DNA of 64,000 nucleotides from Paralichthys olivaceus (Eukaryota > Chordata > Actinopteri > Pleuronectiformes > Paralichthyidae): the NCBI RefSeq assembly GCF_024713975.1, contig NC_091094.1, positions 16,959,001 through 17,023,000 of the forward strand, in the 5' to 3' direction. A program made the translations under genes and the position numbers. Shown here piece by piece: positions 26,141-61,014 of this stretch. Position 1 is the stretch's first letter. Each line of letters begins with the position of its first letter. Under the pieces are notes generated by a model. That model saw only the letters and a list, made by a program, of their open reading frames with translations, was not told where the DNA came from and did no database searches.

Positions 26141-29100
26141 TCAATCAGTACTGTGATCCTCTAGCTGGGAGATGATGGTAATCAGGTTCTGCAGGCCGAA
26201 GATGAAACCACTGTCCTGGCCTTCATGCACCACACTGTCTTCGCCATAGTGCCGACAAGTGGTGTGAGCAAAGTCAATCATGCGCACGTCCACCACAGGG
26301 CTGCTGGCCTCTCCTGTGCTATGGGAGGAACGACTACTACCACTGTTGCTGCTCCCTGCAGCCACACTGGCACTGCCACCTGCTGAAGAACAAGGGAAAT
26401 CAAAGGCCCCCTCCTCTTCTTCCTCCTCCTCCTCATCTTCTTCCTCCTCATCTTCATCTGATGGTTCGTCTTCATCACCTTCTTCACCACCACGGTGTCT
26501 AGGTCTGGTGGGAGTCCTGGGAGGGTCTCCATCATAGATGATGAGCAAGGAGCTGGAGTAGAAGCGGTATGATTCGCAGGCCTCCAGGGCAGCCTGCATT
26601 TCCCGAAGTCTGCGCAGCACGGGGGACAACAGCTCTCGGCGCAAGCGGCGCCCATTGTGGAAGAACTGGTACAGGGCCTCCTTGAAGCCTGCCAGGGTTA
26701 GCTTACGACCGTGGTACTTATTCATGAACATCAGCTGGCCTGAGTCTGACTGGTACACCTGCAAGAGTAACACAGACACATAAGCGTTACAGCTCCATAT
26801 TTAGAGAGAACTCCAGACTAGAGAAGCTGAGCTGCATATCTACCATACCTGCATGCCACAGAGTCGCACTCCAATAGAGGCTGATGTGCTCTGTTGACAC
26901 TTGCGGATCTGATTGGCTTTCTTCTCTTCTGATGCATCATCCCCATGCTGGCGAGTTCCCATCTTCAAGTCTAAGACACATGGTACTGTGTAGCGCCATG
27001 TTAGATTCTCCAAAAGGATAAACTCTTTGAAAGGGGGTCAAGGATTAAACAACAACAAAAGAGACACCAGTCATGCATTTGTAATAAAGCAATCATTGGG
27101 TACACCACTGTACACTGAGACACTGGCTAACTGCTGTTCACTAATGAAAGGATACTGTATTGGTTACGGTGCTTTGCATTCTCCTTCATCCTCTGTAAGT
27201 GCTGCTGGTGGCATTTGAGGCTCCAGGGGTTGTGTTTGATCTGTGGGACCACATTGCCTTTGTCCAGGCTGAAGTAAAGAACCTCCGCCTGTTGCTGCTG
27301 CTGCACCACCACCTCATCACGATTATAACTGTAAAAGGTGAAAAAATATCAGCTTTAGTATTACAGAACTTATTCATGATTCATCGTGTTATCTGTGAAT
27401 GCATGATGGAGCTAAGGCAAGCATCTTCACCTCATGATCTTGTCTTCTTTACGGCTGTTTCGAGCTCTGTCTTTGCTGTAGTTGTCATTCTCCAGAAGCA
27501 AAGTGGACTGCTTCTTCTTGCTCCACTTTAGCATCTTGCTCTTGGGCTCGCAGTCTGCTGAGGGGTCTTTGTTTTCCAGGTCCCCTGATTCGCTGTGGAG
27601 GGGGTAGGCGATGAGGCACAGGTTCCCTTCCTCATCTTCCTCGAAACTGACTGAAACTACACCTGAGAGAGGAGAAGAAGGAAGGTGGTCATTAGTACAG
27701 TACTCGTTTTCCTCAATAAAATACTGGTACATGTGTTCAAATATTTGTATTTACATATTTAAAACACATTTCCTGAACGATTTGACAGCAGCTGACATGA
27801 TCATCCGCCCACAAACACACACACAGGATGTGGATGTAATAGGAAGAGATGGAGGAAGAAAGCAGCCATCAGAGCACAAAACCACGTTTGTATGACTCGA
27901 GAGTCAGAAAACAAGAGACACAAAATATCACACAAGGCTGAAATGTGTCAAACTGAGAAGGACATTTATTAATCAACTGCCAAACATCCTCCTAAAAACA
28001 TACAAAAAATTGAATACAGAGTTTAATGATGACATAGTAAAATGTGATACAGTTTCTCTTTACAGAAACATACATGGAGCAGCAGCAGAACAAGCTACAG
28101 TGAAGAATCAATTACCATAGTACAGTTGATGAATATGTCATGATTCAGTCCATTACCAACCAAATGAAAAAAAGTTGTGGTGTGGAAGAAAACACATCTG
28201 AAGTCCACCTTCATACTCAATATCAGAAACACAGATGAGGTGGAGATGAGGCTAACAGATGCTCCTAGAATCGTCATGATGAATCAAGTAACAGAGTGTT
28301 CCTCTAGCTAATGCTAATTTATGACATGTTCCACAAACAGGCACCAGAGTAAAGCCCCCCATGATGACCCTAGTAAAAGTCCCTAAAAGGGCCTGTGAAT
28401 GGCAGGGTGGGGGAGGTGTTGCTCAGGGAATAAAATGTCACAGCTGAAGCAGCTGATAGAGATCAAACCACAGACAAGAAGACGGGATGTGGTCGACACA
28501 GATCAACGGAAAATGTGGCAGAGATAAAAACACAAAACATCCAAACTCATACATGTTCCACTGTGTATCCAGCAACAGAGGTAGTAGTAGTGGTCAGATT
28601 TGTAATAAGAACAACCTGACAACAAGAACCAGTGTTTAAGAGAGGGATTGTGGTGTGTTGAATGTAAAATGGCAGACCTGAGGACCCAGCACTGACATTC
28701 CTTCCGCTGCAGGCAGAGGCCTCTCTGACGTCATTAGCACTGACATCACCATCCTGCAAGAATCCCCGCCTCTAAAGCATGTCCTGATGAACTGTGGTGT
28801 CCGTTCAGGAGCTGCACCGTCATGACATAACATGTGTGGGAACTTGTGAGCCACTCTGACTTTATTAAATAGAGTGGCTCGTAAACGTGAGATGAAGCCA
28901 GAGTGCAATTCAGTGAGATTTTCACAGTCCAATAGCAAATTGAATTGACATTGATGTCGTCTAATTCTGCTTTCAGGTCTGTACATTGGAACCAAAAATC
29001 CAATCATGATTTACACTTCATGTAGATAAACGGATGTAGCACATCTTAAAGGTCCACTACCTAACTTGTCTTCCATCACTTGATCTACACATACACTTTC

Positions 29101-46499: not shown

Positions 46500-46950
46500 C
46501 GCTCTGGCCAGAGAGCCAGGCTGAGTGCACAGCTCCACTGGCCAAGCCAGAGTGTGCAATGCCCGGCTAGACGCACACGGAATGAGCGCCCCCTCCTCAC
46601 TTGCCGAGTATTTGGTGTTATTAAATAATTTTTCCAGTATTCCAGAGATCCCAGTGCCTGTGTGCTGCTGTCTGTGCCCTGTCAAGTTCCCCTGCACGCT
46701 TTTCTCTGTAGATGAACAAAAACCCACACAGGAGTGGTCTCACTGATGCACACCTTCACTCCATCTTGAGAGTTTCCAAAGCAAAGAACCTAACCCTAAA
46801 CATTAATGTACTGGCAGTCAATAACAGATGCCAAACATCCGGCTCTGGCGCATGTAAATAAAAGAAGAATGTAGCCTTAATATATTTTCTTTTGCAATTG
46901 ATCCAATATCCTGTCTATCCTGTTTAATAAATGTTTTTCATTTTGGCCCT
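46500..46950 (+). repeat. Direct repeat copy A outside the TRIM pair
   Basis: This stretch is closely similar to 54010-54410. Shared blocks in the same order include 'gtgcaatgcccggctagacg', 'gccgagtatttggtgtta', 'tgaacaaaaacccacacagg', 'tgatgcacaccttcactcca' and 'tatcctgtttaataaatgtt'. The two copies lie on either side of both TRIM genes in the same orientation. The 'ttaataaa' near the right end is compatible with a retroelement LTR or 3' end, but no termini were fixed. Confidence 0.75.
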
Positions 46951-47300
46951 CCCTGTGATTGCATTTGACCCCACTGCTGTATTTCTGTCACTTCACACAT
47001 CAGTGTGTTTTATGTGTTTTTCATTTGTGAAGCACTTTGTAAGTTTGTTTTTATTCCACTTAAAAACTTTGAAAAACCTGTGCTGTTGTGAGCTGAATGT
47101 GACTGTTTCCTGTGCAACTATTCACTTGGAAATGTGATAACACACATAAAAAACTCACAAACAGCTCATGGTAGAGAAATGTAGTAAATCCTGAAAAAGT
47201 CAACAACTTCTTCCTGCTCTCAAACACAACCAGGTCCTCCCAGTCAGGATATTTCTTTGTCTCCTCCCTTCACAAATGTGTATAAGAACGAGTGAACAAG

Positions 47301-47480
47301 ATGTGGACTGTGGGCGATGAGTCACTGCAGGAAGTGAATAAGGGAGGGAGGAGCAGAGACTGTTTCTGTTCAGAGGAAATGAAACTATTCTACAGTCACT
47401 GGCACCGGGTGAAATGGCGCAGAGAGGACTTCAGCTGGAGCAGGAAACATTCTGCTGTTCGATCTGTCTGGATCTACTGA
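47301..47480 (+). other. Upstream ORF overlapping the TRIM copy 1 start
   Basis: An ATG 113 bases before the TRIM start opens a 59-codon frame that runs past the TRIM ATG in another frame and stops at 47478-47480. It exists only if the leader is transcribed unspliced. The equivalent frame in copy 2 stops earlier. It looks like a leader feature that could reduce TRIM translation, not a protein gene. Confidence 0.4.
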
Positions 47481-49096
47481 AAGATCCGGTGGCTATTGAC
47501 TGTGGACACAGCTACTGTATGAGCTGTATTAAAACCCACTGGGACAATCAGGATGAGAGAGGAATCTACATCTGTCCTCAGTGTAGACATACTTTCACAC
47601 CGAGGCCTGTCCTGCAGAAAAACACCATGTTAGCTGATTTAGTGGAGGAGCTGAAGAAGACTGGACTCCAAGCTGCTCCTGCTGATCACTGCTATGCTGG
47701 ACCTGAAGATGTGGCCTGTGATGTCTGCACTGGGATAAAACTGAAAGCTCTCAAGTCCTGTTTGGTTTGTTTGGCTTCTTATTGTGAAAAACACCTCCAG
47801 CCTCATTTTCAATCACCTCCATTTAAGAAGCACAAGCTGGTGGAGCCCTCCGACAAGCTCCAGGAGAACATCTGCTCTCGTCACGATGAGGTGATGAAGA
47901 TATTCTGCCGCACTGATCAGCAGTGCATCTGTTATCTCTGCTCTGTGGATGAACATAAAGACCACGACACAGTGTCAGCTGCAGCAGGAAGGACTGAGAA
48001 GCAGAGAGAGCTCGGGCTGAGGAGACAAACAATCCAGCAGAGACTCCAGGACAGAGAGAAAGATATGAAGCTGCTTCAACAGGGGGAGGAGGCCGTCAAT
48101 AGCTCTGCTGATAAAGCAGTGGAGGACAGTGAGAAGATCTTCGCTGAGCTGATCCGTCTGCTGGAGAAAAGAAGCTCTGATGTGAAGCAGGAGATCAGAT
48201 CCCAGCAGGAAACTGAAGTGAGTCGAGTCAAAGAGCTTCAGGAGAGACTGGAGCAGGAGATCACTGAGCTGAAGAGGAGAGACGATGAACTGAAGCAGCT
48301 CTCACACATAGAGGATCACAACCAGTTTCTACACATCTACCCCTCACTGTCACCACTCAGTGAAGCTACACACTCATCCAGCATCAGGATCCGTCCTCTG
48401 AGGAACTTTGAGGACGTGACAGCAGCTGTGTCACAGGTCAGAGGTCGACTACAGGAACTTCTGAGTGAGACACAAACAAAGATTTTACCGATTGTCTCTC
48501 AAGTGGATGTTTCACAGTCACAACCAGAGCCCAAGACCAGAGCTGACTTCTTAAAATATTCACAGAAAATCACACTGGATCCAAACACAGCAAACACACG
48601 TCTGTTATTATCTGAGGGAAACAGAAAGGTAACAGTAATGAGAGAAGAACAGTCTTATTCTAATCACCCAGACAGATTCACTGGTTGGTGTCAGGTCCTG
48701 AGTAGAGAGAGTCTGACTGGATGTTGTTACTGGGAGCTGGAGGTGGATGTGGAGAGAGGAGGAGGAGTTGATTTAGCAGTCGCATACAAGAATATCAGCA
48801 GAGCAGGGAGGTCAAATGAATGTGGATTTGGATTCAATGCTAAATCTTGGTCGTTATTTTGTGTTGGAAACATTTATAACTTTTATTACAACAACATCAA
48901 GACTCCAGTGTCAGGTCCTCAGTCCTCCAGAGTAGGAGTGTACCTGGATCACAGTGCAGGTGTTCTGTCCTTCTACAGTGTCTCTGACACCATGACTCTC
49001 CTCCACAGAGTCCAGACCACATTCACTCAGCCTCTCTATGCTGGAGTTTGGGTTCATAATTCTGGATCCACAGCTGAGTTCTGTAAACTCAAATAG
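47414..49096 (+). CDS. TRIM-family E3 ubiquitin ligase, RING/B-box/coiled-coil/PRY-SPRY, copy 1
   Basis: This is an intronless 560-aa tripartite-motif protein, of the fish group usually labelled TRIM16-like or TRIM25-like. Such proteins are cytosolic ubiquitin ligases, many acting in innate immunity; the target here is unknown. The RING finger has all C3HC4 ligands: C15, C18, C30, H32, C35, C38, C54, C57. A first B-box-like zinc region follows at about 93-140, then B-box 2 (CSRHDEVMKIFCRTDQQCICYLC...DEHKDHD, about 152-186) and a long Glu/Lys/Gln-rich coiled coil at about 190-300. The PRY-SPRY (B30.2) domain covers about 370-560 and starts near 'LDPNTANTRLLLSEGNRKV', with later LSRESLTGCCYWE and VGVYLDHSAGVLSFYSV. 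The start ATG has a good context (G at -3, G at +4). An AATAAA lies at 49345. A 558-aa tandem copy follows at 51583. Confidence 0.93.
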   Translation: MAQRGLQLEQETFCCSICLDLLKDPVAIDCGHSYCMSCIKTHWDNQDERGIYICPQCRHTFTPRPVLQKNTMLADLVEELKKTGLQAAPADHCYAGPEDVACDVCTGIKLKALKSCLVCLASYCEKHLQPHFQSPPFKKHKLVEPSDKLQENICSRHDEVMKIFCRTDQQCICYLCSVDEHKDHDTVSAAAGRTEKQRELGLRRQTIQQRLQDREKDMKLLQQGEEAVNSSADKAVEDSEKIFAELIRLLEKRSSDVKQEIRSQQETEVSRVKELQERLEQEITELKRRDDELKQLSHIEDHNQFLHIYPSLSPLSEATHSSSIRIRPLRNFEDVTAAVSQVRGRLQELLSETQTKILPIVSQVDVSQSQPEPKTRADFLKYSQKITLDPNTANTRLLLSEGNRKVTVMREEQSYSNHPDRFTGWCQVLSRESLTGCCYWELEVDVERGGGVDLAVAYKNISRAGRSNECGFGFNAKSWSLFCVGNIYNFYYNNIKTPVSGPQSSRVGVYLDHSAGVLSFYSVSDTMTLLHRVQTTFTQPLYAGVWVHNSGSTAEFCKLK

Positions 49097-49344
49097 ACTT
49101 GAGTCATTTACAGCAGTACATTTACATATTAAGTGTACGGACATATTATCTGCTGCTGTGTAGGTTTCTGTTCTTTTTGATTTTCGTGATCTAAACTAGC
49201 AGTTCCATTGGAGAGTGTCCTGATCGAGTCCCTCTGAGTGTTTGTTCTCATCACATTTGTTTCTTATACATGTGTATATACATTTAAATCTGGTATAAAT
49301 GTATAAAGCAATACAAATCTGATGTGTGAAGAAGCTGAGGTTTA

Positions 49345-49350
49345 AATAAA
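49345..49350 (+). terminator. Candidate polyadenylation signal of TRIM copy 1
   Basis: AATAAA lies about 250 bases after the stop codon, in the block 'gtttaaataaagaata' that is also present after copy 2 (53649). Conservation between the copies supports its use. Confidence 0.6.
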
Positions 49351-50149
49351 GAATACATCCAATCTGTTCTTTTGTCTTCAATCCAGGATCTTATTCAAAG
49401 CTGATGGAGACAAAGTGAAAGTGATGTGAGACAATAACTGAGGCAGTTTCCTCCTGAAACACCACAAACAGTGTTTATGTTCAGTCAATGTCTTTGCAGC
49501 TTTTCTTCACTAAAACAGCTTCATCACAGAGAAATTAGTAAAGTTTTCTCTCACTTGCTGATTTTCAAACCCCAGATTTTGTTTGTGATCTCAGTTGATG
49601 AACAGAGTTTGTCACACTGATTTAAAGAAGTGGAGAAATAATAATTTGGTCAAGTTTCGGAATGAAGACGTTGAGTTGAGTCGAGTCCTGACACACATGG
49701 GACATATTGGAGACATTGTTATGCTGTGGACTTGAGGTCGTTCTGTTTATTGTGCTGCTGATTTTCATGAGGACGAAACTTCACAAGGAGTTTGTCGTGT
49801 TGCTTCAGTGTTTCACATCGTCACCTCACGGACAGACAGTCCTGGGTCGTACAGTTTGAATCCAGACATGATCAAGACTTCTTGACACGGAGTTTGTCCG
49901 AAGTTTACCCCACAAAACAGACTGTGCTGCTTGAAGAGGTTTTGTAATTTATGCTGAGTTCAAACAGTAAAACATTCAGGATTAGGTTCCTGAGGACTGG
50001 GATCGATTCTTTGCTCCATTACAGACAAACTTCATCCAACTGTTTCAGAACAGAAAGAACTTTGTTGTCACTTTTATTATGTCAGTAAATATAGAAACTG
50101 TTTGAGCAGTTATTAATTTTCTTTGATAAAAGCTGAGCAGTTGTTTCCA

Positions 50150-50410
50150 TGGTTCCTTTGCTCTTTGTCTTTGTCATTTTTCTTCTTTAGAACTCTATCA
50201 ACGTTGCTGTAAATCTGTATAACCTCTGGCTACATGTGCTGTTGTAACAGCTCAGCTTAACACTGAGGGGGACAGACTTTCAGAAATAACAGTCGGAGAC
50301 TCTGCAACAACCTGAGGAAATAAAGCAGGCTGAGTCAGAAGTTTCCTCTAAATCCAAACTTAAAACGTGCTGTTATCGTACCTCGATTTGATCTAATTCT
50401 AGTTTGTATA
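50150..50410 (+). repeat. Duplicated 3' flank, first copy
   Basis: Nearly identical to 53700-53955, including 'gctacatgtgctgttgtaac' and 'ggaaataaagcaggctgagt'. It marks the right part of the tandem unit. Confidence 0.85.
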
Positions 50411-50987
50411 CTGTAAAGGGTGGTCATGATTACATTTCTGTCACTTGTAGTGTTTTTATACTTTTACTCTTCCATTAGTGTGTTTTTATGTATTTTTACT
50501 TGTGTTTTTCTTTTGTGAAGCACTTTGTAAGTTTGTTTTTATTCCACTTAAAAACTTTATTGACTTTTTCACAAACCAATCACAGCTCATTCTCTCACCA
50601 AAGCGGTCCCTTTAAATACGACCTCATCCTCACTGATCCCTGCTCAGCTACACCGCCACCCACGTCTGCTGCCGGCAACCTGCCTCCACCACTCCAGCCT
50701 CCACCCTTTAGCACAGAGTCCAAACATGGTTGTGGTAAACGATATTCATCTTGGACAATTTACCCTGCCTGCTATGCCCGCTGGGGGGGTTCTGCACGTT
50801 TCCTGTTTTATCTTAGCATGCTGCTCGGCTAATCCAGAGAGCATCCAAAGAATGGAGCCTTCAGCGCCAATCATAACTGTTTCCCCATTGTGCAACAAAT
50901 GGATAAATCATGACAAAGTGTTCCTGACTGAAATGCAGTAAATCCTGAAAAAGTCAACAACTTCTTCCTGCTCTCAAACACAACCAG

Positions 50988-51397
50988 TGTCACGGTCATG
51001 TATGTTCAGTGCTTCCTGTTTTATTTTGTAGTCCTTGCTCCCTGTGTGTTTTCACCCTTTGACTTCCTGCCCTCATCAGGTTCACCTGTTTGTCTTGTGC
51101 CACCTGTCCCCAGTTACTCATTAGTTCCAGTGTGTATTTAAGTCTTTGTGTTTCCCCCATGTGGTGGTTGGTTCGTCATCGTCAATTCTGGTTCTGTTCA
51201 TGTGTCCCGTCAGCTCTCGTCACGTTACCCCGTAAGTTTGTATCCTGCCCTGTTCTGTGTTCCACTCCTCTTTTTGAGTGTGACTTTTGTTTTCCTGTAG
51301 AATTCTTGTTAAATAAATACACTTTTTGTTAAACCTTATTTAGTTTCTGTGTTTTGGTCCTCCCCTTCTTACGTCTCCTTCCACTTGAACTTTGACA
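50988..51397 (+). mobile_element. Solo LTR (Gypsy-like) in the leader region of TRIM copy 2
   Basis: In copy 1 the leader reads 'cacaaccaggtcctcccag' without interruption (about 47226). In copy 2 the same site is split by 410 bases that begin TGTCA and end TGACA, flanked by the 5-bp direct repeat 'accag' (50983-50987 and 51398-51402). TG...CA ends with a 5-bp target duplication are the signature of an LTR retroelement. The body has a TATA-like 'gtgtatttaagtc' (about 51131) and an AATAAA (about 51313), as LTRs do. No internal region is present, so it is a solo LTR left by recombination. The Gypsy label is by resemblance. Confidence 0.85.
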
Positions 51398-51469
51398 ACC
51401 AGGTCCTCCCAGTCAGGATATTTCTTTGTCTCCTCCCTTCACAGATGTGTATAAGGAAGAGTGAACAAG

Positions 51470-51571
51470 ATGTGGACTGTGGGCGATGAGTCACTGCAGG
51501 AAGTGAATAAGGGAGGGAGGAGCAGAGACTGTTTCTGTTCAGAGGAAGTGAAACTATTCTACAGTCACTAG
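51470..51571 (+). other. Short upstream ORF of TRIM copy 2
   Basis: The ATG equivalent to the one at 47301 opens a 33-codon frame that stops at TAG (51569-51571), 11 bases before the TRIM ATG. In copy 1 this triplet is TGG, so the frame there continues across the start. Significance depends on where transcription begins. Confidence 0.4.
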
Positions 51572-51582
51572 CACCGGGTGAA

Positions 51583-53259
51583 ATGGCGCAGAGAGGACTT
51601 CAGCTGGACAGAGGAAGATTCTCTTGTTCGATCTGTCTGGATCTACTGAAAGATCCGGTGGCTATTGGCTGTGGACACAGCTACTGTATGAGCTGTATTG
51701 AAACCCACTGGGACAATGAGGATGAGAGAGGAATCTACATCTGTCCTCAGTGTGGACAGACCTTCACACCGAGGCCTGTCCTGGGGAAAAACACCATGTT
51801 AGCTGATTTAATGGAGAAGCTGAAGAAGACTGGACTCCAAGCTTCTCCAGCTGATCACTGCTATGCTGGACCTGAAGATGTGGCCTGTGATGTCTGCACT
51901 GGGATAAAACTGAAAGCTCTCAAGTCCTGTTTGGTTTGTTTGGCTTCTTATTGTGAAAAACACCTCCAGCCTCATTTTCAATCACCTCCATTTAAGAAGC
52001 ACAAGCTGGTGGAGCCCTCCGACAAGCTCCAGGAGAACATCTGCTCTCGTCACGATGAGGTGATGAAGATATTCTGCCGCACTGATCAGCAGTGCATCTG
52101 TTATCTCTGCTCTGTGGATGAACATAAAGACCACGACACAGTGTCAGCTGCAGCAGGAAGGACTGAGAAGCAGAGAGAGCTCGGGCTGAGGAGACAAACA
52201 ATCCAGCAGAGACTCCAGGACAGAGAGAAAGATATGAAGCTGCTTCAACAGGGGGAGGAGGCTGTCAATAGCTCTGCTGATAAAGCAGTGGAGGACAGTG
52301 AGAAGATCTTCGCTGAGCTGATCCGTCTGCTGGAGAAAAGAAGCTCTGATGTGAAGCAGGAGATCAGATCCCAGCAGGAAACTGAAGTGAGTCGAGTCAA
52401 AGAGCTTCAGGAGAGACTGGAGCAGGAGATCACTGAGCTGAAGAGGAAAGACGATGAACTGAAGCAGCTCTCACACATAGAGGATCACAACCAGTTTCTA
52501 CACATCTACCCCTCACTGTCACCAATCAGTGAAGCTACACACTCATCCAGCATCAGGATCCGTCCTCTGAGGAACTTTGAGGACGTGACAGCAGCTGTGT
52601 CACAGGTCAGAGGTCGACTACAGGAACTTCTGAGTGAGACACAAACAAAGATTTTACCGATTGTGTCTCAAGTGGATGTTTCACAGTCACAACCAGAGCC
52701 CAAGACCAGAGCTGACTTCTTAAAATATTCACAGAAAATCACACTGGATCCAAACACAGCAAACACACGTCTGTTATTATCTGAGGGAAACAGAAAAGTA
52801 AGATACGTGAGAGAAAAACTGTCTTATTCTTATCACCCAGACAGATTCACTGATAGGTTACAGGTCCTGAGTAGAGAGAGTCTGACTGGATGTTGTTACT
52901 GGGAGGTGGAGGTGGATGTGGAGAGGAGAGGAGTTAGTCTAGCAGTCGCATACAAGAATATCAGCAGAGCAGGGAGGTTAGATGAATGTAGATTTGGATT
53001 AAATGCTAAATCTTGGAAGTTATATTATGATCGAAACATTTGTAACTTTTATTACAACAACATCAGGACTCCAGTGTCAGGTCCTCAGTCCTCCAGAGTA
53101 GGAGTGTACCTGGATCACAGTGCAGGTGTTCTGTCCTTCTACAGTGTCTCTGACACCATGACTCTCCTCCACAGAGTCCAGACCACATTCACTCAGCCTC
53201 TCTATGCTGGAGTTGGTGTTAGTTCTGGATCCACAGCTGAGTTCTGTAAACTCAAATAG
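51583..53259 (+). CDS. TRIM-family E3 ubiquitin ligase, RING/B-box/coiled-coil/PRY-SPRY, copy 2
   Basis: This intronless 558-aa protein is the tandem partner of the gene at 47414. RING ligands are complete (C15, C18, C30, H32, C35, C38, C54, C57), followed by the two B-box regions, the coiled coil and PRY-SPRY in the same order. About fourteen residues differ from copy 1 in the first 90. From residue 91 to about 406 only two differ (Arg/Lys and Leu/Ile), and differences cluster again at about 407-485 in the SPRY domain and at the C-terminus. The leader carries a 410-bp solo LTR that copy 1 lacks, lying about 186-595 bases before the start, so its transcription may differ. An AATAAA follows at 53649. 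The function is inferred from the family only. Confidence 0.93.
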   Translation: MAQRGLQLDRGRFSCSICLDLLKDPVAIGCGHSYCMSCIETHWDNEDERGIYICPQCGQTFTPRPVLGKNTMLADLMEKLKKTGLQASPADHCYAGPEDVACDVCTGIKLKALKSCLVCLASYCEKHLQPHFQSPPFKKHKLVEPSDKLQENICSRHDEVMKIFCRTDQQCICYLCSVDEHKDHDTVSAAAGRTEKQRELGLRRQTIQQRLQDREKDMKLLQQGEEAVNSSADKAVEDSEKIFAELIRLLEKRSSDVKQEIRSQQETEVSRVKELQERLEQEITELKRKDDELKQLSHIEDHNQFLHIYPSLSPISEATHSSSIRIRPLRNFEDVTAAVSQVRGRLQELLSETQTKILPIVSQVDVSQSQPEPKTRADFLKYSQKITLDPNTANTRLLLSEGNRKVRYVREKLSYSYHPDRFTDRLQVLSRESLTGCCYWEVEVDVERRGVSLAVAYKNISRAGRLDECRFGLNAKSWKLYYDRNICNFYYNNIRTPVSGPQSSRVGVYLDHSAGVLSFYSVSDTMTLLHRVQTTFTQPLYAGVGVSSGSTAEFCKLK

Positions 53260-53648
53260 ACTTGAGTCATTTAAAGCAGTGATTTGGATTCTGTGTTTAA
53301 ATCTTTAACTTCTTTTGTCTTCGTGTTTGATGCTCAAAGTTCGTGGTCAAGACGTTTCTGCTCCGCACAGAGATCAGCTGTCAATCAAACACTGACACGA
53401 ACACCTATAATCTATAATAACACTGACATGTGTTTGAAAGAACCAGTGTTGCTGTTGTTTTCTGAATCAATGTAGAAATAAGGTTCTCTGATTTTTTTAT
53501 AACCTGTATTGATCTTGATCATAATCAATGAGCTGATTATTTGTTCTTTTCTTTTCCACATGTGAGATGGAGATGAAACAAACTGACTGTGTGGATGAAG
53601 TGAATGTTTCCATGAAATCAAGAGTCACTGATGAAATGATCAAGTTTA

Positions 53649-53654: not shown

Positions 53655-53699
53655 GAATAAATCCAGTCTGTTCTTTTGTCTTCATTCCAGGATCTCATT

Positions 53700-53955
53700 T
53701 GTTTCCATGGTTGCTTTGCTCTTTGTCATTTTTCTTCTTTAGAACTCTATCAACGTTGCTGTAAATCTGTATAACCTCTGGCTACATGTGCTGTTGTAAC
53801 AGCTCAGCTTAACACTGAGGGGGACAGACTTTAAGAAATAAGAGTCTGAGACTCAGCAACAACCTGAGGAAATAAAGCAGGCTGAGTCAGAAGTTTCCTC
53901 TAAATCCAAACTTAAACCTCGATTTGATCTAATTCTAGTTTGTATACTGTAAAGG
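53700..53955 (+). repeat. Duplicated 3' flank, second copy
   Basis: Counterpart of 50150-50410. It ends at 'gtttgtatactgtaaagg', after which the two copies diverge; this is the visible right end of the tandem duplication. Confidence 0.85.
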
Positions 53956-54009: not shown

Positions 54010-54410
54010 GGGAGCCAGGCGGCGTCCACGGGCTCCACAGGCCGAGCTGTGGTGTGCAATGCCCGGCTAGACGCACACGGAACAAGCGTCCCTCCTCACC
54101 TGCCGAGTATTTGGTGTTAGTAAATAATTTTTCCAGTGTTCCAGAGATCCCAGCGCCTGTGTACTTCTGTCTGTGCCCAATCAAATTCACCCACGCACTT
54201 CTTCTCTGTGATGAAGATGAACAAAAACCCACACAGGAGTTGTCTCACTGATGCACATCTTCACTCCATCTTGAGGGTTTCCACAGCAAAGAACCCAAAC
54301 CCAAACATTAATGAACTGGCAGTCAAGAACAGATGCCAATCATCTGGCTCTGGCATCTGCCCAATATCCTGTCTATCCTGTTTAATAAATGTTGACCCTG
54401 TTTGGCCCCT
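54010..54410 (+). repeat. Direct repeat copy B outside the TRIM pair
   Basis: Counterpart of 46500-46950 in the same orientation, with several small differences and a missing segment just before 'ccaatatcctgtctatcctg'. It lies immediately beyond the right end of the second TRIM unit. Confidence 0.75.
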
Positions 54411-55199: not shown

Positions 55200-57650
55200 T
55201 CTATACGTAGATGCACATAGTATTTGGGGGTGTTGGTGAGTAGGAAAAAAAATTAAAAGGCAAACTTGTAAAATTAGCAAACCTTTTACGAGTAAAATCT
55301 CTAATCTGCAAGTATCGCAAAAAATGATTATTGGTCAGACCGAATTTACTGGATAGCTGTTCAAAGCTAGCAAAAGTATTACTGACATAAAGGTCCTCGA
55401 TACTACGAATACCCCTATCATACGAAGTTTTGAAGCCATTGTCCAATAAAGATGGTTGAAATAACTGATTACGTATTATTGGTGAGTGAATAGAAATACT
55501 CTGAATACCCAGACATCTTTTGAACTGGTTCACGATATGTAAGGATTGAGTTACAATTATATTGTCTTTAATATTATTAACTAGTGGTGGTAGGGGAGCA
55601 CAGAGTAAGGCAGGGAGTGAGTGTGGGCTGCTTGTAACCTTTTCTGGAGCCATGCAGGGATCCTATCATTCCAATCTTTTAACCACAGAGAGGTGGCATT
55701 AAAATTCGTAGCCCAATATTACGTACACAAGTTTGGAAGCGAAAGCCCACCAACCCCTTTTGGTCTTTCCATAAATTATTTTCTTATGTGAGCTGGTTTA
55801 TTATTCCATATAAAGGAAGAAATCATTTGATTGAATGTCTTAAAAAAAGATTGTGGTATGAAAACAGGCAACGCTTGAAACAAATATAGAAACTTTGGTA
55901 CAATATTCATCTTTACAGAATTTGTTCTCCAGATGAGAGAGAGAGGCAAAATAGACCATCTTTTAATATCTTGTTTACCCTGTTCCAGCAGAGGAGTGAG
56001 GTTACTTTTAAATAGGCTGTAATAGGATTTGGTGACTTTGACACCTAGATGTATAAAGGACTCGGCGGATAACTTAAATGGCAGAATTGGGATATTCTCT
56101 AGCATTACTACTGATGGGGAAGTATTGACTTTTATTAAAATTTTGTTTATATCCAGATATGTTTCCAAATTCCTGCAAGACTAAGAATTTCAGGGGTAGA
56201 TGTGGTAGGGTTGGTGACATATAATGATAAATCGTCTGCATAAAGCGAGACAGTGTGAGTCAGGCCACCACGTGAAATACCTTGTATACTATTATTGCAT
56301 CTGAGACCTATAGCCAGTGGTTCTATAGCTAGAACGAAAAGCAACAGACTCACTGGATCCCCTTGCTTCGTCCCTCTGTGAAGAGGAAAGTACTCAGATG
56401 AGATGCCATTGGTATAAACTGAGGCAGTTGGGTCAGTGTAAATGAGCTTGATAAGGTGAATGAAGTTAGGGCCAAAACCAAACCTGCCAAGTGTATAAAA
56501 AAGATAATTCCACTCGACCCGATCAAACGCCTTTTCGGTGTCAAGCGATAAAACTGCTTCTGGGGAAGGAGTGCTCGATTCAGTATAGATGATATTAAAC
56601 AATCATCTCAGGTTAAAATAGGATTGTCTGCCCTGGACAAACCCAGTCTGGTCCTCCGAGATGATATGAGGAAGAACTGTCTCAAGCCGGAGTGCATGAC
56701 CTTTACCATCTTTACCGTCACAGTTTGTCAAGCTAATTGGTCTGTATGATGAGCAATCACGAGGGTCCTTATTCTTTTTTAATAACAGTGTAATAGATGT
56801 CTGGCAAAGTGTAGGCGGAAGAATGTTATTCTCCAGTGCTTCTGCATAAACTGAGAGAAGGAGAGGGGCAAGTCTATCTTTGAATTTTTTATAAAAATCA
56901 GTTGAAAACCAATCCAGGCCGGGGGCTTTTCCACTCTGAAGGGACATTATCGCATTGTTAATTTCTTCCAGCATCAAATTTTGTTTCAATCGCTCTTTAG
57001 GGTCAGAGTCAATGTTCAGAGTAGAAAAAAAAGAGTCAAATTGGTTGTGATCCTGTGTTGAGCCTGACGAATATAGTTTAGAATAGAACTCTTTAAAGCA
57101 GTTGTTAAAAGTCTGATGATCCTCTGTTGAGGAGCCATCCGGTAGCATAATTTGTGAAATATTATGGGACGCAGCTTTTTGACGGAGTGTACTGGCTAAT
57201 AATTTGGAAGGTTTATCCCCCTCTTCATAGAATCTACTACGGGATTTAAGGATGAGCCTCTCTGCTTGGGTGGTAGTTAAGAGATCAATTTCAGTTTGTA
57301 AGCCTACTCTCCTCCTAATCAGATCAGGGGTCGGAGAGGCAGCTATGAGTCCGTCCAGAGTCTTAATTTCTGAAGATAGCTCCTCTATATTCTTATATTT
57401 CATTTTCCGAATATGGGCAGAGCGAGAAATAATCTGCCCTCTGAGATATGCGTTATGCGTTTCCTAGAGAGTTGAGGCTGAGATACTATCGGTCCTGTTT
57501 ACCTACAGAAAAAAATCTATTTGTTCTGTAATGAACTTTATAAAGTCTGAATCTGCCAGCAGGAGTGTATCAAGCTGCCATGTCCGTTTTGTCCTTTGAA
57601 TCGGAAGAGTTACTTTAATACTCACCGGGGCATGGTCACAAATAATAATC
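55200..57650 (-). pseudogene. L1 ORF2 remnant (end of endonuclease, reverse transcriptase)
   Basis: The frame begins with 'CDHAPVSIKVTLP' (about 57640), which corresponds to the last part of the L1 endonuclease. It runs through 'SRSRFYEEGDKPSKLL', 'GKAPGLDWFSTDFYK', 'SYRPISLTNCDGK' and, after a TGA at 56603, 'DTEKAFDRVEWNYLF', 'GTKQGDPVSLLLF' and 'SLYADDLSLY', the YADD catalytic box. Frameshifts follow near 56160 and 55775, and further stops occur at the 3' end. The order of reverse-transcriptase blocks is normal, so the catalytic core was once complete, but the copy is dead. Confidence 0.85.
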
Positions 57651-60029: not shown

Positions 60030-60033
60030 TTAA

Positions 60034-61010
60034 AGGAGAAGTTCGTTTTTTTTCAACCTGGTCCTTATTTCCAGCACATGCTATGTAGATCTACTCACCC
60101 ATAAAGGTTTGGAGTAACTTGGAGTCCTTCGTACGCTTTTAGATCAACACGCGATCGGCTTATATCCATACAACGCAAGTGAGTGGGGCATCCACAATAC
60201 AGCCTCTAAATAACGCATTATCTTCCGCGAAACTCTTTATTTACTATGAATCGCCAGCACCAGTCCCCTGTGAGTCGCAGTTGCTTTGTTTACATCCCGG
60301 GCTTTCACTGGGGTGACGTCACCAAGGCGCGCAGCCGCAGCACAGCTGACGATCATCTGTGTTTGATTACACAGAGTTTGCTGCTGCTAGTTTTGTGCAA
60401 CATACAACACAACAGAATACTTATCAGGTGCTTTACAGTACAATATTCTTTTAAAGCAGCTGTGTCGTGGTGCTTGGGCATATTCACCCGGTTAAAGGCT
60501 AGCCAACTTCAGCGGGCTATCGAGCAGCCTCGGAGCTAGCGTTAGCTTAGCGAACCGAGAGCGAGTTGTCTTCCTGTTTAATCAACAAACTGGGTGAATA
60601 CGCCCGAGCACCAGGAGACAGCTGCTTTAAAAAAATACTGTACTGTAATACACCTGATAAGTATTCTGCCATGTTGCAACAAACACAGCTGATCGTCATC
60701 TGTGCTGCGCCTGTGCGCCTCGGTGACGTCACCCCAGTGAAAGCCCGGGATGTGAACAAAGCAACTGCGACTCACAGGGGACTGGTGCTGGCGAGTCATA
60801 GTAAATAAAGAGTTCGTGGCAGATAATGCATTATTTAGAGGCTGTATTGCGGATGCCCCAATCACTTGCGTTGTATGGATATACGCCGAACGCGTGTGGA
60901 TCTAAAAGCGACCGAAGGACTCCAAGTTACTCCAAACCTTTATGGGTGAGTAGATCTACAGACCATGTGCTGGAAATAAGGACCAAGTTGGAAAAAAACG
61001 AACTTCTCCT
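60034..61010. mobile_element. Foldback (long inverted repeat) transposon with TTAA flanks
   Basis: The 977-bp element begins 'aggagaagttcgttttttt' and ends with the inverse of that, and is bounded by TTAA on both sides (60030-60033 and 61011-61014). The inverted identity continues far inward: 'ggactggtgctggcga', 'cccgggctttcactggggtg' and 'aaagcagctg' each occur on one arm and inverted on the other, so each arm is about 450 bases with a spacer near 60500-60570. The arms differ at scattered sites, so the insertion is not brand new. Frames inside it read the same peptide from both strands and are not genes. TTAA flanks suggest mobilisation by a piggyBac-type transposase. Confidence 0.88.
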
Positions 61011-61014
61011 TTAA

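Follow-up and report, generated by a model that had tools for sequence, protein, structure and literature searches.

A tandem pair of single-exon TRIM genes in Paralichthys olivaceus: a probably shared silent rate, uneven replacement change and probable segment-specific selection

The finTRIMs (ftr) are a multigene family of teleosts with RING, B-box, coiled-coil and B30.2 domains, and passages of van der Aa et al. (2009, PMC2657112) name TRIM16 and TRIM25 as their nearest mammalian relatives, without being true orthologues. According to the same passages, the B30.2 domain and sites immediately before the RING showed positive selection, and the test did not reach significance past the RING/B-box recombination breakpoint (p = 0.155 and 0.455). 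In medaka, 47 of 55 hits were single-exon and most probably retrotransposed (PMC2657112), and an excerpt of Boudinot et al. (2011, PMC3137616) reports that retrotransposition was involved in the medaka ftr expansion. Here we describe two TRIM genes, copies A and B, in a 64,000-nucleotide stretch of Paralichthys olivaceus DNA (contig NC_091094.1, positions 16,959,001–17,023,000; hereafter the window, numbered from its first letter). We found that the copies differ very unevenly along their length, mainly at replacement sites, and that a single silent rate is not rejected. The pair probably goes back to a tandem duplication of one age followed by segment-specific selection, with copy B as a predicted weak ligase.

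Both copies are intact single-exon open reading frames (ORFs) in head-to-tail arrangement, and all gene segments and flanks given below lie on the plus strand. Copy A (47414–49096, 560 amino acids) contains a RING (15–57), a B-box (150–188), a coiled coil (211–351), a PRY (386–433) and an SPRY domain (438–557); copy B (51583–53259, 558 amino acids) has the same domains. The Pfam cut-offs for zf-C3HC4_4, zf-B_box, TRIM_CC, PRY and SPRY were passed in both copies, and both show the domain order of an RBCC-B30.2 TRIM (RING, B-box, coiled coil, PRY/SPRY). The closest solved structure to copy A was TRIM25 from RING to coiled coil (PDB 4cfg, E = 5.7e-70) and TRIM16 in the SPRY domain (7qs3, E = 7.2e-36), where TRIM16-like was matched as well. 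Among PDB sequences, which were the only ones compared, the nearest mammalian relatives are thus those described for finTRIMs. Judged by its likeness to these PDB chains, the gene would be a single-exon TRIM of the TRIM25/TRIM16/finTRIM-like type. The AlphaFold model had a mean predicted local distance difference test (pLDDT) score of only 56.4, with residues 383–432 below 50, too poor for mapping the variable residues onto loops.

The two proteins are 92.3% identical and differ by 41 substitutions and 2 one-residue indels. At the RING end (codons 1–90, 47414–47683 in copy A), 14 of 90 residues differ, including four adjacent codons (9–12) directly before the first RING Cys; by eye, compensating small indels may account for these codons instead of six point changes. 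The middle of the gene (codons 91–406, 47684–48631), which covers the B-box, the coiled coil and the start of PRY, shows five base differences in 948 bp (at codons 227, 289, 315, 361 and 405) and two changed residues of 316. These two, 289 and 315, both lie in the Pfam coiled coil, which is otherwise identical. The variable PRY/SPRY part (codons 407–496, 48632–48901 in copy A and 52801–53067 in copy B) holds 23 substitutions and one codon indel, and codons 546–549 add 2 substitutions and 1 indel, giving 25 substituted residues in PRY/SPRY. An earlier note on this DNA had counted about 14 differing residues in the first 90, two in about 91–406, strong divergence later and few base differences across the middle, and our recount agrees. 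When the 41 substituted positions were polarized against the solved TRIM25/TRIM16 chains, copy A alone matched the outgroup at 13 and copy B alone at 4, while 24 were uninformative or unaligned. This hints that copy B may have changed more than copy A, a tally of little weight given the great distance of the outgroups and an alignment built with copy A as the query.

Synonymous differences over the whole gene amounted to 10.5/366 (2.9%), and the non-coding flanks gave 18/638 (2.8%; 7/301 in the 5' flank and 11/337 in the 3' flank). By segment, the NG86 silent counts were 4.5/57 (codons 1–90), 3/207 (91–406), 2.5/50 (407–486), 0/38.5 (487–540) and 0.5/14 (541–560). In the codon model, a single silent rate was not rejected in favor of four free segment rates (likelihood ratio 5.2, 3 degrees of freedom, p = 0.157), nor when codons 9–12 were removed (p = 0.357). 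The earlier note had held the pattern to be incompatible with a uniform duplication age, and had proposed a sliding-window comparison of silent and replacement change in which equal synonymous divergence would speak against its own account. Equal divergence is what the segment model fails to reject, and the exclusion of a uniform age was wrong because the contrast between segments lies mainly at replacement sites.

The replacement sites point to selection that differs by segment. With a shared silent rate, omega was 3.7 for codons 1–90, 0.12 for 91–405, 6.8 for 406–496 and 0.80 from 497 to the end; omega = 1 was rejected in the first three (p = 0.0019, 0.0021 and 1.5e-7, respectively) and not in the last (p = 0.77). 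The SPRY omega was still 4.9 with free silent rates, and replacement change in codons 407–486 reached 25.5/187 against 2.5/50 at silent sites. Compared with the flank rate, replacements were in excess in the SPRY part (27/212, p = 2.9e-7) and the RING end (15/213, p = 0.012) and in deficit in the middle (2/741, p = 5e-5). These replacement counts have been rounded, and the 212 sites for codons 407–496 are an estimate. Diversifying selection on the PRY/SPRY part is thus supported, and positive selection in B30.2 as known from finTRIMs is found in this one pair (codons 406–496). Diversifying selection on the RING end is supported if the silent rate is shared. The earlier note had assumed it for both the RING tip and the SPRY target-binding loops; its proposal is supported for the SPRY domain and, for the RING end, under the shared rate only.

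Several points weigh against one age followed by selection. Purely silent coding differences number only 7, and statistical power is therefore low. The silent count of the RING end (4.5/57) is nominally high and that of the middle (3/207) nominally low: on unweighted silent third positions, the middle had 3/311 against 22/835 at other silent and flank sites (one-sided p = 0.06). Against the flanks alone the two-sided p was 0.097, and with boundaries shifted post hoc to codons 90–404 (2/311 vs 18/638) it was 0.03. A joint condition, also chosen post hoc, was reached in 3% of 1500 simulations. Moreover, the RING-end omega drops to 1.2 once the silent rates are free, so that selection there is conditional on the shared rate; taken alone, the RING end has about equal replacement (dN 0.077) and silent (dS 0.083) divergence, which import from another paralogue would give likewise. 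Finally, selection was judged from one pair, with no third paralogue.

The low silent count of the middle would suit the explanation that the earlier note preferred, in which the duplication is older and conversion later homogenized the B-box/coiled-coil middle, while the ends were under diversifying selection. Over all 1674 compared coding sites there were 58 differences and a longest identical run of 413 bp, with significant clustering (p = 1e-4), which also favors conversion. The gene-conversion test called for by that note was run in Sawyer-type form, and its longest-run p value changed from 1e-4 for all coding sites to 0.78 for silent third positions and 0.77 for silent sites plus flanks; the sum-of-squares version gave 1e-4, 0.65 and 0.33. 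A boundary-free scan for lowered silent divergence found no significant interval (p = 0.63, 300 null draws). In simulations with one age and the fitted omegas, 21.7% of 1500 replicates had an identical stretch of 413 bp or longer, compared with 0/800 without selection; under the same age and segment selection, the middle gained no more than 3 silent changes in 21.8% of 1500. The long identical stretch thus needs no conversion, because segment-specific selection reproduces such runs. The three silent changes fit only an older tract: at least 3 silent differences arose in the simulated middle in 0.000, 0.019, 0.185 and 0.514 of 800 simulations each for relative tract ages of 0, 0.1, 0.25 and 0.5. 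Since they are so rare at the two lowest ages, the middle as a whole is unlikely to have been converted recently, while an older, partial or short tract is possible. Altogether, the pattern can be explained without conversion of the middle, the conversion signal disappears on silent sites, and we regard conversion as an unlikely origin of the mosaic. An all-site runs test can mistake domain-wise selection for gene conversion, for which silent sites are the proper check.

In another scenario, the middle is the true young duplicate, and the RING end and/or the SPRY domain of one copy was imported by ectopic conversion from diverged TRIM paralogues. The RING end, raised in silent and replacement change alike, agrees with this, as does the 3' flank similarity that halts 21 bp beyond the stop codon, and a part of van der Aa et al. 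places zebrafish finTRIM recombination breakpoints within RBB and B30.2 (PMC2657112). However, silent change in SPRY is not raised as replacement change is, and both flanks diverged about as much as the silent sites of the gene. A tblastn search found no third TRIM coding region or donor copy in the window; searches for further paralogues gave 8 pattern matches in viral contigs and 10 in genome contigs, 0 of which were confirmed in either set. Imported ends are a quite improbable source of the divergence.

The sequence around the genes bears on the duplication itself. Upstream, homology between the copies comprises 63- and 58-bp blocks and the 188 bp preceding the ATG (47226–47413 in copy A, 51395–51582 in copy B, 5 differences). 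Downstream it comprises 21, 56 and 260 aligned bp, the last at 50138–50419 in copy A and 53696–53955 in copy B with 6 differences and two indels. Similarity ends abruptly 21 bp past the stop codon and restarts at 49340/53644; between these points no convincing homology between the copies was found (49118–49339 vs 53281–53643), and 742 bp of copy A (49396–50137) have no counterpart in copy B. Two independent retrocopies were rejected, because non-coding sequence is common to both copies on both sides. The arrangement is best explained by duplication at the DNA level, in which a unit of about 3.4 kb (47008–50419 in copy A) was copied and later interrupted by indels. One of these is an insertion of 407 bp on the 5' side of copy B (50988–51394), which begins with TGTCA, finishes with TGACA and has ACAACCAG on either side, together spanning 50980–51402; the empty site is visible in copy A at 47226–47233, and the insertion resembles a short DNA transposon that left an 8-bp target duplication. 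A further block at 46513–46949 and 54012–54408 flanks the gene pair, with 43 differences in 336 aligned bases in its main part, and is either an older duplication of the same unit or a dispersed element.

Near-identical tandem copies are, as is generally known, a cause of assembly error, and the middle could have been collapsed or copied, or two haplotypes placed in tandem. An assembly collapse, which the earlier note had named as an outcome against its account, is unlikely as judged from the assembled sequence. The window has no N, and an exact copy of the middle is unlikely because five base differences occur there. Furthermore, the 407-bp insertion is present in one copy only, and parts of the 3' regions have no similarity. 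An artefact of this kind is very improbable.

Based on the shared flanks and their rate, we suppose that a single-exon TRIM gene and its flanks were duplicated in tandem, in the simplest case in one event, and that the copies now stand at about 2.8% silent divergence; the flanks and the rate are observed, the number of events is inferred. The codon models support the view that change was then favored in PRY/SPRY and the RING end and purged from the B-box/coiled coil. By analogy with known TRIMs, in which SPRY binds the target and the RING hands on ubiquitin, rapid SPRY change would retune target choice, and the conserved coiled coil would preserve dimerization, probably including A/B heterodimers. 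Such heterodimers are plausible because the coiled coils are near-identical.

The RING-end changes may also affect activity. Copy A carries Glu11, Thr12 and Arg58, and copy B Gly11, Arg12 (51616–51618) and Gly58 (51754–51756, corresponding to 47585–47587 in copy A), positions 12 and 58 being aligned to E10 and the linchpin R54 of TRIM25. According to parts of an EMBO J 2016 paper (PMC4864278), E10R abolishes TRIM25 activity, mutation of R54 lowers it and E9R is harmless. The acid at E10 is absent from copy A too, so that the likeness lies in the Arg of copy B and not in loss from a TRIM25-like state. TRIM6 and TRIM22 are reported to be pseudoligases whose linchpin is replaced (passages of Dudley-Fraser et al. 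2025, PMC11992055). The Arg is replaced in copy B as well, by Gly and not by the Gln of those proteins. The same passages also mention TRIM32, whose RING is active although it has Ser at this position. Copy A retains the linchpin Arg and has an acidic residue ahead of the RING; because copy B has neither, little or no ligase activity is predicted for it, and this candidate pseudoligase may serve as a binder or modulator. A more specific and doubtful possibility is a split unit, in which an active E3 (copy A) would heterodimerize with a partner of disabled RING and different SPRY (copy B), and the dimer would either sense two targets while only a single RING works or serve as a decoy tuning copy A. 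If a dead ligase were indeed tied to a live one by a constrained coiled coil, fish would offer a natural test of the role of pseudoligase TRIMs.

Other features of the window were recorded as well. The motif GGAANNGAAACT, which we take to be an ETS/IRF-like composite site, occurs at 47375–47386 and 51544–51555, 27 bp before each ATG, with one base differing between the copies; the window has 4 matches vs 0.22 expected, two of which are these duplicated sites and not independent. GAAANNGAAA, present once per copy, was not counted as an interferon-type site because it lies inside the coding region. A reverse transcriptase fragment (Pfam RVT_1) lies at 56147–56602 on the minus strand; the ORFs beside it, 56603–57403 and 55201–55653, had no Pfam match and may belong to the same retroelement. 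A large inverted repeat at 60030–61014, with arms of 202 and 135 bp and 93% and 95% complementarity, is perhaps a foldback element. On the minus strand, an ORF at 26141–26779 matches Pfam IPK (inositol polyphosphate kinase), and inspection by eye showed an acidic stretch in it.

Among the matches listed from the open-licence literature, titles and abstract openings held nothing on the A/B pair or on linchpin loss in finTRIMs, which is no proof of absence. TRIM25 and TRIM16 are the best solved relatives of copy A, but distant ones, and copy B has no Arg at the position of TRIM25 R54. The likeness to the finTRIMs, as far as the cited passages describe them, extends to the domain set, the kinship with TRIM16/TRIM25, selection in B30.2 and near the RING with no significant positive selection past the RBB breakpoint, and the single exon, as in medaka. 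In contrast, the zebrafish genes have six coding exons (PMC2657112), whereas copies A and B have one. Rapid change is likewise concentrated in PRY/SPRY in the B30.2 domain of primate TRIM5alpha, as described in a part of PMC2657112. We regard copies A and B as one more young TRIM pair with rapid change in SPRY and the RING end, which repeats the published finTRIM pattern on one young duplication and is ordinary for fish TRIM families.

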